From NCBI GenBank assembly GCA_001556025.1, contig LSIB01000044.1, positions 7,907 through 71,906 on the forward strand: 64,000 nt of DNA. The letters are read 5' to 3'. Within the stretch, counting starts at the first letter, position 1. Each line of letters opens with the position of its first letter. Below the pieces are notes generated by a model. It was not told the DNA's origin. It worked only from the letters and a program-made list of their open reading frames with translations, and did not search any database. Of the stretch, positions 1,549 to 55,378 are shown piece after piece. Source of the DNA: Rhizobiales bacterium CCH3-A5. Its GTDB lineage: Bacteria > Pseudomonadota > Alphaproteobacteria > Rhizobiales > Beijerinckiaceae. A program made the translations under genes and the position numbers.

Positions 1549-1574
1549 AACGTCACAGCTTTGCGCTTGGTTCC
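1549..1574 (-). promoter_or_regulatory. EcfG-type promoter of the response regulator gene
   Basis: On the minus strand it reads GGAAC, 17 bp, CGTT: a perfect match to the EcfG consensus GGAAC-N16/17-CGTT. It points at the single-domain response regulator starting at 1482. Confidence 0.75.
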
Positions 1575-1670
1575 CGAAATCACGCTTAATCGACGTGCGA
1601 TTTCGTCGCATTCGATTCAACTTGCAGGAACAAGGTTAGCGAAACGTGAGCCTGCGGGCTCGTTCGGCCG

Positions 1671-2204
1671 TTAACGCCGGCCCCGCGACGGCGCGAGCGT
1701 CAGCTCGAACCCGGTCACGCCCAGCGCCACATTGATCCCCCGCGAGGATTGCAGCGAGAGCGGCTGGAGCCTGACCTCGTTGTCGGCGCCGCCGATCAGG
1801 GCCGTCGCGGCCGCCCCGGTGCCGACCGAGGCGCCCGCGCTCGCCCCGGCATAACGCCCGTTGAGCGCGCCGAGCGGCGCGCGGGCATAGGGCCCATAGA
1901 CCCGCCAGGACATTGTGCTGCCGCGGATCGACCCAAGGTCAAGGCCGAAGCTGCGAACCGTGCCGACATAACGCTGCGTCGGTCCGCGCCGGGGCGTGAA
2001 GCGGCAATCCATCGAACGCTGCGAGGTCACCACCAAACCAATCGCGCTGCCGACGGCGCAACTGAGCCGACCGGCCGGTGCATCCGACTGCGCATGGGCA
2101 ACACCCGACATCAAGACGGCCGACGCGATGGAGAGCGCCACGAGACGTCCTTTGGCAAGGACACCTGCCTTGGTGATGACAGGTTGGATAGGCCGGTTCG
2201 ACAT
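1671..2204 (-). CDS. DUF992-family secreted protein
   Basis: A 177-aa protein with a long N-terminal segment and a hydrophobic signal-like stretch (VALSIASAVLMSGVAHAQ, about residues 22-39) ending in an AHA-Q cleavage site. The mature part shows the DUF992 pattern: LSCAVGSAIGLVVTS near the front, two Cys (one in SMDCRF), then a YVGTVRSFGLDLG block and a Gly/Ala-rich loop. Function unknown; the family is alphaproteobacterial and predicted periplasmic. A Shine-Dalgarno AGGAG precedes ATG 2204. A perfect EcfG-type promoter ends about 30 bp upstream (2236-2260), giving a short leader, so stress control is likely. A shorter start inside the signal peptide is possible. Confidence 0.85.
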   Translation of the reverse strand: MSNRPIQPVITKAGVLAKGRLVALSIASAVLMSGVAHAQSDAPAGRLSCAVGSAIGLVVTSQRSMDCRFTPRRGPTQRYVGTVRSFGLDLGSIRGSTMSWRVYGPYARAPLGALNGRYAGASAGASVGTGAAATALIGGADNEVRLQPLSLQSSRGINVALGVTGFELTLAPSRGRR

Positions 2205-2235
2205 CGCAAATCTCCTGTCGTGGTAGCTTCCGGAA

Positions 2236-2260
2236 AACGCCGCAATCGCTCCACAGTTCC
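2236..2260 (-). promoter_or_regulatory. EcfG-type promoter of the DUF992 gene
   Basis: Minus strand: GGAAC, 16 bp, CGTT, an exact consensus match. The predicted transcription start is around 2228, about 24 nt before the DUF992 start codon. Confidence 0.8.
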
Positions 2261-2271
2261 TGTCTTAACTC

Positions 2272-2296
2272 GGAACCTGACCGGATATGTGGCGTT
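2272..2296 (+). promoter_or_regulatory. EcfG-type promoter of the small gene at 2328
   Basis: Plus strand: GGAAC, 16 bp, CGTT, an exact consensus match, back to back with the divergent DUF992 promoter 11 bp away. It is followed 19-24 bp later by a GGAAGG Shine-Dalgarno and an ATG. Confidence 0.75.
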
Positions 2297-2327
2297 GCTG
2301 ATCAAAAATCCGGGTGGAAGGCCGATA

Positions 2328-2576
2328 ATGCTCGTTATGCGCAGTCGAGATCGTGATTCTCGGCATCAGTATGGCCAATGTCGGGTTCATTCCGCGCTCC
2401 TGTCGGGCGGCGAGAACGCAAACATTGCGCGCCGACTCTGGGAACTGGAGGCGCTGATCGCGGCCGGCTGCGACCTGACCAAGGCGTTGACCGTGATCTC
2501 CGCCCGCTGGAATTCCTCCGTCGGAGAGGGTGTACGCCCCGCGATCCCCGAAATGCATAGGCCCAACCTGTCATAA
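2328..2576 (+). CDS. Unrecognised 82-aa protein, predicted GSR target
   Basis: I do not recognise this protein. Support for a real gene is threefold. First, GGAAGG lies 6 nt before ATG 2328. Second, a perfect EcfG-type promoter lies just upstream (2272-2296). Third, from about codon 22 onward nearly every codon ends in G or C, as in its neighbours. The first 20 codons have weaker codon bias and a basic, charged composition (MLVMRSRDRDSRHQ). The second half contains a helix-like stretch (RRLWELEALIAAGCDLTKAL). No signal peptide or membrane segment. It converges on the extensin-like gene (stop at 2590). It could alternatively be the remnant of a longer gene. Confidence 0.5.
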   Translation: MLVMRSRDRDSRHQYGQCRVHSALLSGGENANIARRLWELEALIAAGCDLTKALTVISARWNSSVGEGVRPAIPEMHRPNLS

Positions 2577-2589
2577 GGCTGCATCGCCA

Positions 2590-53412: not shown

Positions 53413-53479
53413 GGCCAGTCCTTTCGGCATCCTGCCAGCAGCAGAGACCGCAATTGCGTCAGCATTTCGAGATGCTGGC

Positions 53480-53764
53480 TCAGTCCCAGGGCAGATCGAC
53501 CTTGCAGCGATAACCCACGAAGCATTGCGCCGAGTCGCGGCTCGGAACGAAGGCGGGTTCGAGATACTCGCCATGCTGGCAGAAGCCGCCATCGCGCACG
53601 AAGCGGTCATAGGTATGGCCGCCCGTTCCCAGCACGATCGCGCCGCCGGCCGTGACGCTTTGGCGGTTAGCGGCGCAGAGACGGTCTGGCGTCGAGGGAC
53701 GCGGCTGCGCCAGCGCCGGCATGGCGGCAAGCAGGAGCAGGGTCGAGAGGGCGATCGGTTTCAT
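53480..53764 (-). CDS. Small secreted protein with four cysteines
   Basis: A 94-aa protein with a clear signal peptide (MKPIALSTLLLLAAMPALAQ) and a 74-aa mature chain with four Cys (LCAANR, GFCQHG, AQCFVG, YRCKVD) that could form two disulfides. No family recognised. An EcfG-like promoter at 53794-53818 gives a leader of about 22 nt, so it is a likely envelope stress protein. The small lipoprotein gene follows. Confidence 0.75.
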   Translation of the reverse strand: MKPIALSTLLLLAAMPALAQPRPSTPDRLCAANRQSVTAGGAIVLGTGGHTYDRFVRDGGFCQHGEYLEPAFVPSRDSAQCFVGYRCKVDLPWD

Positions 53765-53793
53765 CGGCGTCTCCTTTGCGACGATACGAGCCT

Positions 53794-53818
53794 AACACGC
53801 CACGCGGATGCGCGTTCC
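53794..53818 (-). promoter_or_regulatory. EcfG-like promoter of the small secreted protein gene
   Basis: Minus strand: GGAAC, 16 bp, TGTT. One deviation from CGTT, the same as the site at 3730. Confidence 0.5.
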
Positions 53819-53882
53819 CTTGACGCAGCCGCCCTCATCGGCCATCGCTCCGCCCGCTGTGATGACGACCCGGAGCCGCGCC

Positions 53883-54725
53883 ATGTCCACGACCGATCTG
53901 AGCCAGACCATCGACGCCGCCTGGGAGGCGCGCGCCGAGATCGGGGTCTCGACGAAGGGCGCGGTGCGCGAGGCGGTCGAGACCACAATCGAGATGCTGG
54001 ATTCAGGCTCCGCACGCGTCGCCGAAAAGCAGGACGGCGACTGGGTCGTGCATCAGTGGCTGAAGAAGGCGGTGCTGCTCTCCTTCCGCCTGACGGACAA
54101 CATGATCATCGCCAACGGCCCTGGAGACGCCGTGTTCTGGGACAAGGTGCCATCGAAATTCGCAGGCTGGGGCGAGAACCGCTTCCGCGCCGCAGGCTTC
54201 CGCGTGGTCCCGCCGGCGGCGGCGCGGAAAGGCTCCTTCATCGCCCAGAACGTCGTGCTGATGCCGTCCTTCGTCAATATCGGCGCCTATGTCGACACCG
54301 GCACGATGGTCGACACCTGGGCGACCGTCGGCTCCTGCGCGCAGATCGGCAAGAACGTCCACTTGTCGGGCGGCGTCGGTATCGGCGGCGTGTTGGAGCC
54401 GCTGCAGGCCAACCCGACCATCATCGAAGACAACTGCTTCATCGGCGCGCGCTCCGAGGTCGTCGAGGGCGTCATCGTCGGCGAGGGCTCGGTGCTCTCG
54501 ATGGGCGTCTTCATCTCGGCCTCGACCAAGATCGTCGATCGCGCCACCGGGGCGGTCCATCTCGGCAAGGTGCCGCCCTATTCGGTGGTGGTGCCGGGCT
54601 CTCTGCCCGGAAAACCGTTCCCGGACGGCACGCCCGGCCCCTCGCTCTCCTGCGCCGTCATCGTCAAGACGGTCGATGCGCAGACGCGCTCGAAGACGGG
54701 CATCAACGAGCTGCTGCGGGATTGA
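53883..54725 (+). CDS. dapD: Tetrahydrodipicolinate N-succinyltransferase
   Basis: A 280-aa left-handed beta-helix acyltransferase of the lysine/diaminopimelate pathway, using succinyl-CoA. The N-terminal helical domain is followed by WGENRFRAAGFRVVPPAAAR, hexapeptide repeats (VNIGAYVDTGTMVDTWATVG, SGGVGIGGVLEPLQANPTII), and the C-terminal VKTVDAQTRSKTGINELLRD. ATG 53883 fits the family start. Its stop abuts the convergent DUF1269 stop. Confidence 0.97.
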   Translation: MSTTDLSQTIDAAWEARAEIGVSTKGAVREAVETTIEMLDSGSARVAEKQDGDWVVHQWLKKAVLLSFRLTDNMIIANGPGDAVFWDKVPSKFAGWGENRFRAAGFRVVPPAAARKGSFIAQNVVLMPSFVNIGAYVDTGTMVDTWATVGSCAQIGKNVHLSGGVGIGGVLEPLQANPTIIEDNCFIGARSEVVEGVIVGEGSVLSMGVFISASTKIVDRATGAVHLGKVPPYSVVVPGSLPGKPFPDGTPGPSLSCAVIVKTVDAQTRSKTGINELLRD

Positions 54726-55289
54726 TCAGCCCACCGGCGTCGGCGCGCCCGTTCCCTGCGGATAGGGCGCGGGCGGCGTGTCGGAGGCCGGCGTCGTCGC
54801 CGACCCGGTCGCCGCGAGCGCATCGCGCAGCTTCTGCTCCTGGCTGTGGTCGAGCGAGGTCTTCAACACCACGCCGCCGGTGCCCTGGAGCGCGTCGAGC
54901 ACCTTGTCGGCGGTCATCTTGTTGATCAGCACGAAGAGCGCGGCGTTGCCGGGCTGAAGGCTGGCCGCAAGCTCCTTCATGAAGCCGTCATTGACGCCGT
55001 AATCGGTCAATGCACCGCCGAGCGCGCCGGACGCTGCGCCGAGCGCCGCGCCAAAAACCGGCATCAGGAAGATCGCGCCGATCAGCAGCCCCCAGAACGA
55101 ACCCGAGGCCGCCCCGAGCGCTGTCGTATTGAGAAGCTGGTTGAGCTTGACCTTGCCGCCTTCCTGCATGACCGCGATGGCGGCGTCGCCGATCTCGATC
55201 AGGTATTCCTTCTGCAGCGAAATGACCTTCTGGCGCATCTCCTCGGCGCGGGCCTCGCTCGGATAGACGATGACGACGAGATCAGACAT
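54726..55289 (-). CDS. DUF1269-family membrane protein
   Basis: A 187-aa protein with an N-terminal cytoplasmic alpha/beta part (MSDLVVIVYPSEARAEEMRQ), a Gly/Ala-rich hairpin of two helices (FWGLLIGAIFLMPVFGAALG, then ASGALGGALTDYG), and a soluble domain with LFVLINKMTADKV. This is the DUF1269 pattern, often seen among stress-induced genes. A perfect EcfG-type promoter lies 64 bp upstream. Function unknown. Confidence 0.88.
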   Translation of the reverse strand: MSDLVVIVYPSEARAEEMRQKVISLQKEYLIEIGDAAIAVMQEGGKVKLNQLLNTTALGAASGSFWGLLIGAIFLMPVFGAALGAASGALGGALTDYGVNDGFMKELAASLQPGNAALFVLINKMTADKVLDALQGTGGVVLKTSLDHSQEQKLRDALAATGSATTPASDTPPAPYPQGTGAPTPVG

Positions 55290-55352
55290 GGGACGCTCCT
55301 GCCGTGGGTGCCTGCAATAACCCTGTCGCGCCTATATGACGGACGCGTGGCG

Positions 55353-55378
55353 AACGCGGCGGCGGCTCTGCCGGTTCC
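55353..55378 (-). promoter_or_regulatory. EcfG-type promoter of the DUF1269 gene
   Basis: Minus strand: GGAAC, 17 bp, CGTT, an exact consensus match. Its predicted start is about 56 nt before ATG 55289. Confidence 0.78.

Follow-up and report, generated by a model that had tools for sequence, protein, structure and literature searches.

A stretch of 64,000 nucleotides from Rhizobiales bacterium CCH3-A5 (contig LSIB01000044.1, positions 7,907 to 71,906; the whole stretch is called the window here) very probably carries the general stress response (GSR) locus of a Bosea-type bacterium, lying within a supra-operonic cluster of predicted EcfG promoters. Each transcription unit between 1123 and 10565, perhaps not phyR, has its own EcfG-type promoter. 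The published EcfG consensus is GGAAC-N16-CGTT, and natural TGTT and CATT promoters have been described (PMC7083833, PMC3892343). The window was searched for GGAAC-N16/17-NGTT, of which BGTT denotes the form with C, T or G before GTT and CGTT the strict form. Thirteen matches to the general pattern were found, compared to 1.34 +/- 1.09 in dinucleotide shuffles, and none of 100 shuffles reached 13. An initial annotation of this DNA had listed eight sites besides that at phyR/nepR and had remarked on their clustering near ecfG. All eight are present with the pattern and spacing given for them, and the clustering was borne out by a local excess over shuffles, permuted motifs and the genome rate; the list was incomplete, since the sites at 8290 (-), before a transglutaminase-like gene, and 10630 (-), before an ABC transporter gene, had been missed.

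At the centre of the sites are phyR, nepR and ecfG. The phyR gene (3826..4623, minus strand, probable start ATG at 4623) encodes PhyR_sigma2, PhyR_sigma-like and Response_reg domains and matches the NCBIfam PhyR family at 379 bits (cut-off 240). The product of nepR (4857..5081, +), the anti-sigma factor, scores above the cut-off of the Pfam NepR model (E 1.4e-14) and below that of the NCBIfam NepR equivalog model (29 bits vs 100). The open reading frame (ORF) of ecfG (5068..5628, +), placed after nepR and overlapping it by 14 bases, encodes a sigma factor with sigma-70 regions 2 and 4 that passes NCBIfam model NF009199 (250.6, cut-off 219); no EcfG-named model was among the NCBIfam matches listed. 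In all six relatives searched, the best match to ecfG is 90-95% identical. Downstream lies the gene for HK2 (5645..7282, +), an HWE/HisKA_2 protein (Pfam HisKA_2, HWE_HK) with an HRVKN box and a degenerate ATPase region, which resembles PhyT/PhyP. The EcfG-type promoter of nepR-ecfG-HK2 is at 4703..4727 (+, N16).

The nearest relatives of the window PhyR, at 81-90% identity, are from Bosea and Hyphomicrobiales isolates (loci L001-L006 and L024). These seven loci, set in the orientation of the window, were used for comparing the sites near phyR; they were treated as Boseaceae on gene order too, and for L004 and L006 the family label is our own. All sites were scored in relatives by place and strand. 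Four sites left of phyR recur in five to seven of the seven loci. That at 1549..1574 (-, N17, CGTT; 7/7) precedes the gene for a single-domain, SdrG-like receiver (1123..1482, -). Those at 2236..2260 (-, N16, CGTT; 5/7, not L005 or L024) and 2272..2296 (+, N16, CGTT; 7/7) precede, respectively, the gene for a DUF992 protein (1671..2204, -; Pfam PF06186, E 8.6e-44) and one for a protein of 82 amino acids (aa; 2328..2576, +), which has no Pfam match and has homologous ORFs behind the site in seven Boseaceae loci. The fourth, at 3730..3754 (-, N16, TGTT; same place in 7/7), precedes the genes for a 54-aa protein, hydrophobic by eye (3514..3678, -; tblastn orthologue in 4/7), and a protein with an extensin-like C-terminal domain (2590..3489, -; Pfam PF06904); with 24 bases between them, these two genes probably form one operon. 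The promoter of nepR, in BGTT form, is at the same place in all seven relatives. The initial annotation had counted it as a (C/T/G)GTT site, but in the window an A precedes GTT.

Right of HK2 are genes for a transglutaminase-like protein (7293..8171, -; Pfam PF08379, PF01841), with a possible EcfG-type promoter at 8290..8314 (-, CGTT), for a 92-aa protein that has an N-terminal hydrophobic stretch by eye and no Pfam match (8333..8611, -), with a promoter at 8665..8689 (-, CGTT) found in six of six gene-holding relatives, and for an ABC transporter of the ABC_membrane_2/SbmA_BacA-like type (8757..10565, -), with a promoter at 10630..10655 (-, N17, GGTT) found in five of five. The short L003 contig does not reach the transglutaminase gene, and L006 yielded no ABC gene. 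Three distant sites were compared in six relatives, in four to six of which they recur. One, at 23301..23325 (+, GGTT), stands before csbD in 6/6; the 63-aa CsbD-like protein (23379..23570, +) matches Pfam CsbD at E 8.3e-15, and csbD is a listed GSR gene of Sphingopyxis (PMC7083833). The others are at 53794..53818 (-, TGTT; 4/6), before the gene for a 94-aa protein without a Pfam match and with orthologues in 6/6 relatives (53480..53764, -), and at 55353..55378 (-, N17, CGTT; 4/6), before that for a DUF1269 protein (54726..55289, -; Pfam PF06897, E 2.9e-37). For these counts a site on the wrong side in L128 was left out, and L130 offered only 256 bases of upstream sequence. Distances from site to start are mostly 29-66 nucleotides (nt) to plausible start codons; the preferred starts of the transglutaminase gene and nepR lie 118 and 129 nt from their sites. 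The window thus yields named, testable GSR targets in 11 promoters (12 with that of phyR), several of them before proteins without an assigned function.

Spacer identity between orthologous sites averaged 0.30-0.49 in eight groups (the seven near groups and csbD, leaving out the transglutaminase, DUF1269 and 94-aa groups), compared to 0.28 between non-orthologous sites. This low identity indicates that the boxes were kept while the spacers drifted. Among the 58 sites of this comparison the first spacer base was G once, and C preceded GTT in 44.

These observations bear on whether a short pattern merely matched GC-rich DNA by accident and drew notice through its nearness to ecfG. That is exceedingly improbable, and for the cluster it is refuted; individual sites, that at 8290 for instance, may yet prove accidental. 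In the whole window there are 12 BGTT matches, compared to a mean of 2.5 and a maximum of 8 for 89 letter-permuted controls; in bases 1-12000 there are 8, compared to a mean of 0.49 and a maximum of 4, and the strongest of these controls, CGGAA/GTT and GGAAC/TTG, have most letters in common with the real motif and could be picking up genuine sites. The segment 1549-10655 holds 8 sites where the frequency in three Bosea genomes (0.035 per kb) predicts 0.32 (Poisson P = 1.9e-9). Besides this excess over every control, the sites keep their place and strand in relatives despite the drifted spacers, and the pattern repeats around 73 other phyR loci. What speaks for chance is that genome-wide counts are near or under those of a backward control in most genomes searched. 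A further match, at 60811 (+), falls within an ORF (60161-60925); it is probably such a chance occurrence and was set aside.

Genome-wide tests were made on the genomes of relatives, three of Bosea (G001 and G002 among them) and one of Mesorhizobium. In G002, 9 of 90 strict sites lie in 14 kb at phyR and the next-best run has 3 (Poisson P 3e-13, uncorrected for scanning); in G001, 6 of 91 lie in 10 kb at phyR and the next-best run has 4 (P 1.5e-8). Strict sites are thus packed most densely at the phyR locus in both of these fully listed Bosea genomes. In Mesorhizobium, 9 of 175 strict sites lie in 9 kb at phyR (P 3e-13), other runs there being judged among the sites listed only. Smaller runs of strict sites were seen at G002:C13:8642-17882 (3 sites) and G001:C68:99073-108631 (4 sites); the genes beside them read like what we take to be glycogen and trehalose enzymes.

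Several observations weigh against the reading of the locus as a GSR centre surrounded by EcfG promoters. Over whole genomes the motif shows no clear enrichment: BGTT counts in the three Bosea genomes were 200, 181 and 273, compared to 194, 289 and 222 for the backward pattern, and CGTT counts were 90 vs 160 in G002, 91 vs 87 in G001 and 175 vs 249 in Mesorhizobium. Pairing strict sites of G002 and G001 by a common downstream homologue gave 33 pairs, compared to 24 with the orientation reversed, several of the latter being divergent neighbours of likely real sites; the pairing separates poorly and serves only to name recurring targets. The 8290 site was found in two of the six relatives that hold the gene (L002, L006); it was also found in L008 and L009, outside Boseaceae. 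In Boseaceae no EcfG site is conserved before phyR, in contrast to the usual locus. As for the signalling proteins, HK2 had no match at E<=0.01 among solved structures, and the receiver reads PFAFVSGS where the FAT-GUY motif, whose letters are typical of SdrG-type receivers, is expected. The genome-wide search suggested in the initial annotation, run here on relatives with the backward control, supports enrichment locally and not clearly over the whole genome, and the claim in that annotation of a regulon readable from promoters alone holds for the neighbourhood of ecfG and does not extend to the genome. Consensus alone cannot call an EcfG regulon genome-wide. The interpretation in the initial annotation of a local EcfG regulon is supported by the published consensus, by recurrence in place with unlike spacers, and by phyR-nepR-ecfG at the centre.

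The promoters could also be real and belong to, or be shared with, another GGAAC-type extracytoplasmic function (ECF) sigma factor. E. coli RpoE is cited with a GGAACTT -35 element (PMC8103513), and four of six relatives have one or two more distant EcfG homologues at 36-50% identity. We nevertheless consider this improbable: the -10 boxes CGTT, GGTT and TGTT suit the EcfG group, G001 and G002 have the cluster yet a single EcfG match at E<=1e-20, and it is phyR-nepR-ecfG that stands at the centre of the sites.

The region upstream of phyR differs from that of its neighbours. A possible phyR-sense EcfG site (4705..4729, -) overlaps the nepR site; of the phyR/nepR site of the initial annotation, the nepR sense recurs in all the relatives, while none of the seven has the phyR-sense match in strict form and one has it in a relaxed form. 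Outside Boseaceae, phyR-sense EcfG-type sites were present in 46 of 72 loci and nepR-sense sites in 53 of 72 (L051, with short upstream sequence, was dropped). From window position 4674-4690 on towards phyR, a block TGACAAGC(G/A)ATTTATTT is conserved in six of the eight Boseaceae sequences. Read in the phyR sense, CTTGTCA occurs at -55 to -57 in six of eight sequences, the window included, and is followed after about 16 bases by TGCTCATTT or a one-base variant of it in five of the six; in L006 the second box differs. In L005 and L024, a relative of the first block is located at a greater distance upstream of phyR. The CTTGTCA block may be a housekeeping-type, non-EcfG promoter of phyR. If so, PhyR would not rise alongside EcfG and NepR, contrary to the usual scheme.

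Together with its neighbours, the locus appears to encode a whole phosphorelay: a HisKA_2 kinase, an SdrG-like receiver, a PhyT-like degenerate kinase and PhyR-NepR-EcfG. In Sphingomonas melonis, the Pak kinase, SdrG and the degenerate PhyT are described as relaying phosphate to PhyR (PMC5898713). The candidate kinase here, HK1 (1..1115, +), is a CHASE3-HisKA_2 sensor kinase with an ATPase domain (Pfam CHASE3, HisKA_2 and HATPase_c on 51-1112) and, by eye, an HRVGN box; it runs off the left edge of the window, and its counterpart in L002 has 457 aa. SdrG (5ieb) was the best of seven matches of the receiver among solved structures (E 2.1e-12), and Pfam Response_reg matched it at E 0.043 only, under its cut-off. 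The HRVKN box of HK2 is identical in all nine aligned sequences, and the window protein has no HATPase match at Pfam E<=1e-3; the NCBIfam PhyK model falls below its cut-off, with an alignment that ends at 462 of 537. Membrane segments were seen in HK2 by eye. The ATPase region looks alike in eight aligned relatives, the Pfam scan having covered the window protein only.

In relatives the cluster extends left of the window edge, where a site, a DUF883_C-type small protein gene and a weakly holin-like gene come before HK1; in L002, L004 and L006, an EcfG-type site with DUF883-like and holin-like genes behind it lies ahead of HK1. Relatives also have a site before an AI-2E family transporter gene beyond that edge. 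The AI-2E transporter and DUF883-like homologues of B. vaviloviae SD260 (G001) lie about 32 kb away from the cluster with their EcfG-type sites kept (G001:C1:291800-294800; L214, L215).

From this arrangement we propose that, under stress, HK1 would become active and phosphorylate the SdrG-like receiver, from which the phosphoryl group would pass via the PhyT-like HK2 to PhyR. Phosphorylated PhyR would remove NepR from EcfG, and free EcfG would then transcribe nepR-ecfG-HK2 and the receiver gene, giving feedback. It would further transcribe the neighbouring genes for the DUF992, 82-aa, 54-aa/extensin-like, transglutaminase-like and 92-aa proteins and the ABC transporter, and the distant csbD, DUF1269 and 94-aa genes.

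Crowding of EcfG-type sites was also found around phyR in other families. The best 80 of at least 543 PhyR matches were taken as loci, 7 from Boseaceae and 73 others. For the Boseaceae, with the 300 bases before phyR excluded, 43 sites were found within -7 to +3.5 kb, compared to a control mean of 3.1 and maximum of 16, and 10 farther out, compared to 1.9. The same near zone of the 73 other loci (716 kb) had 312 sites, compared to a control mean of 33 and a maximum of 147, the latter from a control that has GGAA in common with the motif at a one-base shift; farther out (684 kb) there were 44, compared to a mean of 27.6. The site density of these 73 loci is thus 9.5 times that of the control in the near zone and 1.6 times in the outer one. 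Since the loci are mutually related, the count was also made with one locus for each of 44 genus or isolate labels, assigned from record titles: 132 near sites vs a control mean of 18.9, and 27 vs 15.7 farther out. At least one extra site lay within the near zone in 36 of the 44, where chance would give about 0.4 per locus; numbers ranged from 10 in one Rhizobiaceae bin and 9 in a Mesorhizobium to none in 8 labels, three of them with short contigs.

The passengers of the cluster are conserved unequally. Candidate ORFs behind sites in the 80 loci were linked mechanically into groups, in which false frames are possible, and families were named by Pfam from one representative each. Groups spanning Boseaceae and other families were DUF883-like proteins (42 loci in one linked group), Crp-type regulators (17) and AI-2E transporters (8); those seen outside Boseaceae only were PRC-barrel proteins (33), diacylglycerol kinases (18), Ku (4) and KGG (3). 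When Boseaceae proteins were used as tblastn queries (E<=1e-6) in the 73 other loci, the transglutaminase-like protein matched in 2, DUF992 in 3, HK2 in 8, Crp in 20 and the receiver in 27, and the extensin-like and 92-aa proteins in none; tblastn overlooks small diverged proteins, DUF883 giving 0/73 despite the presence of the family there. The crowding is therefore conserved more widely than some of its passengers, and other passengers are common across families.

The EcfG promoters may well be functional and owe their clustering to inherited synteny only, without selection for nearness to ecfG, a possibility to which we give slightly less than an even chance. It addresses only the clustering and is no rival to the reading of the locus as a GSR centre with EcfG promoters around it. 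The same genes stand together within Boseaceae, and the DUF883-like, Crp-type, AI-2E and receiver families recur elsewhere, as synteny would predict; the near or complete absence of tblastn matches to the extensin-like, 92-aa, transglutaminase-like and DUF992 proteins in the other loci, and the different families found behind sites there, speak against it. Conversely, nearness to ecfG might itself be selected, the locus being a landing zone in which passengers partly turn over while EcfG-promoter density is kept; promoters beside the sigma gene would then fire first or at lower sigma levels. We put this forward tentatively and think it rather unlikely.

The GSR system itself is known. As in the PhyR-NepR-EcfG (ECF15) systems described in PMC8103513, PhyR here has sigma-like and receiver domains, nepR overlaps ecfG, phyR is divergent, an HRxxN kinase is nearby, and an EcfG-type promoter precedes nepR-ecfG. 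Unlike in those systems, neighbouring units share the promoter type over 9 kb (about 14 kb in L002), and Boseaceae phyR lacks the conserved site, most having the different block. As in S. melonis Fr1, a HisKA_2 kinase, an SdrG-like receiver and a PhyT-like HRxxN protein go with phyR; there other relay genes are suggested to be scattered (PMC5898713), whereas here kinase and receiver genes are in one cluster and an EcfG-type promoter of its own precedes the receiver gene. The sequence matches are distant, and the relay here is a prediction. In the EcfG1 regulon of Rhizobium etli, which includes the EcfG-dependent noncoding RNA ReC64 downstream of phyR-tcrY, an EcfG-type promoter lies just downstream of phyR in the conserved ecfG-phyR region (PMC3892343); the promoter in that place here precedes the 54-aa ORF and the extensin-like gene, with no Rfam family at gathering score. 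In the passages of open-access papers reached by our searches, crowding of EcfG target promoters around the locus was nowhere described, though such a description may exist elsewhere. The one paper found in which Bosea, EcfG and the general stress response all occur does not link them. The new part is the conserved crowding together with the one-locus relay, a candidate for the Sphingomonas phosphorelay gathered in a single place. One stretch of chromosome appears to hold both the signal chain and some of its output, also in many relatives, and with the crowding reaching well outside Boseaceae, why regulators and targets cluster becomes measurable. No structured RNA was found in the cluster at Rfam gathering scores; the window has a sole Rfam match, a TPP riboswitch (31479-31581, -; RF00059, 69.9 bits).

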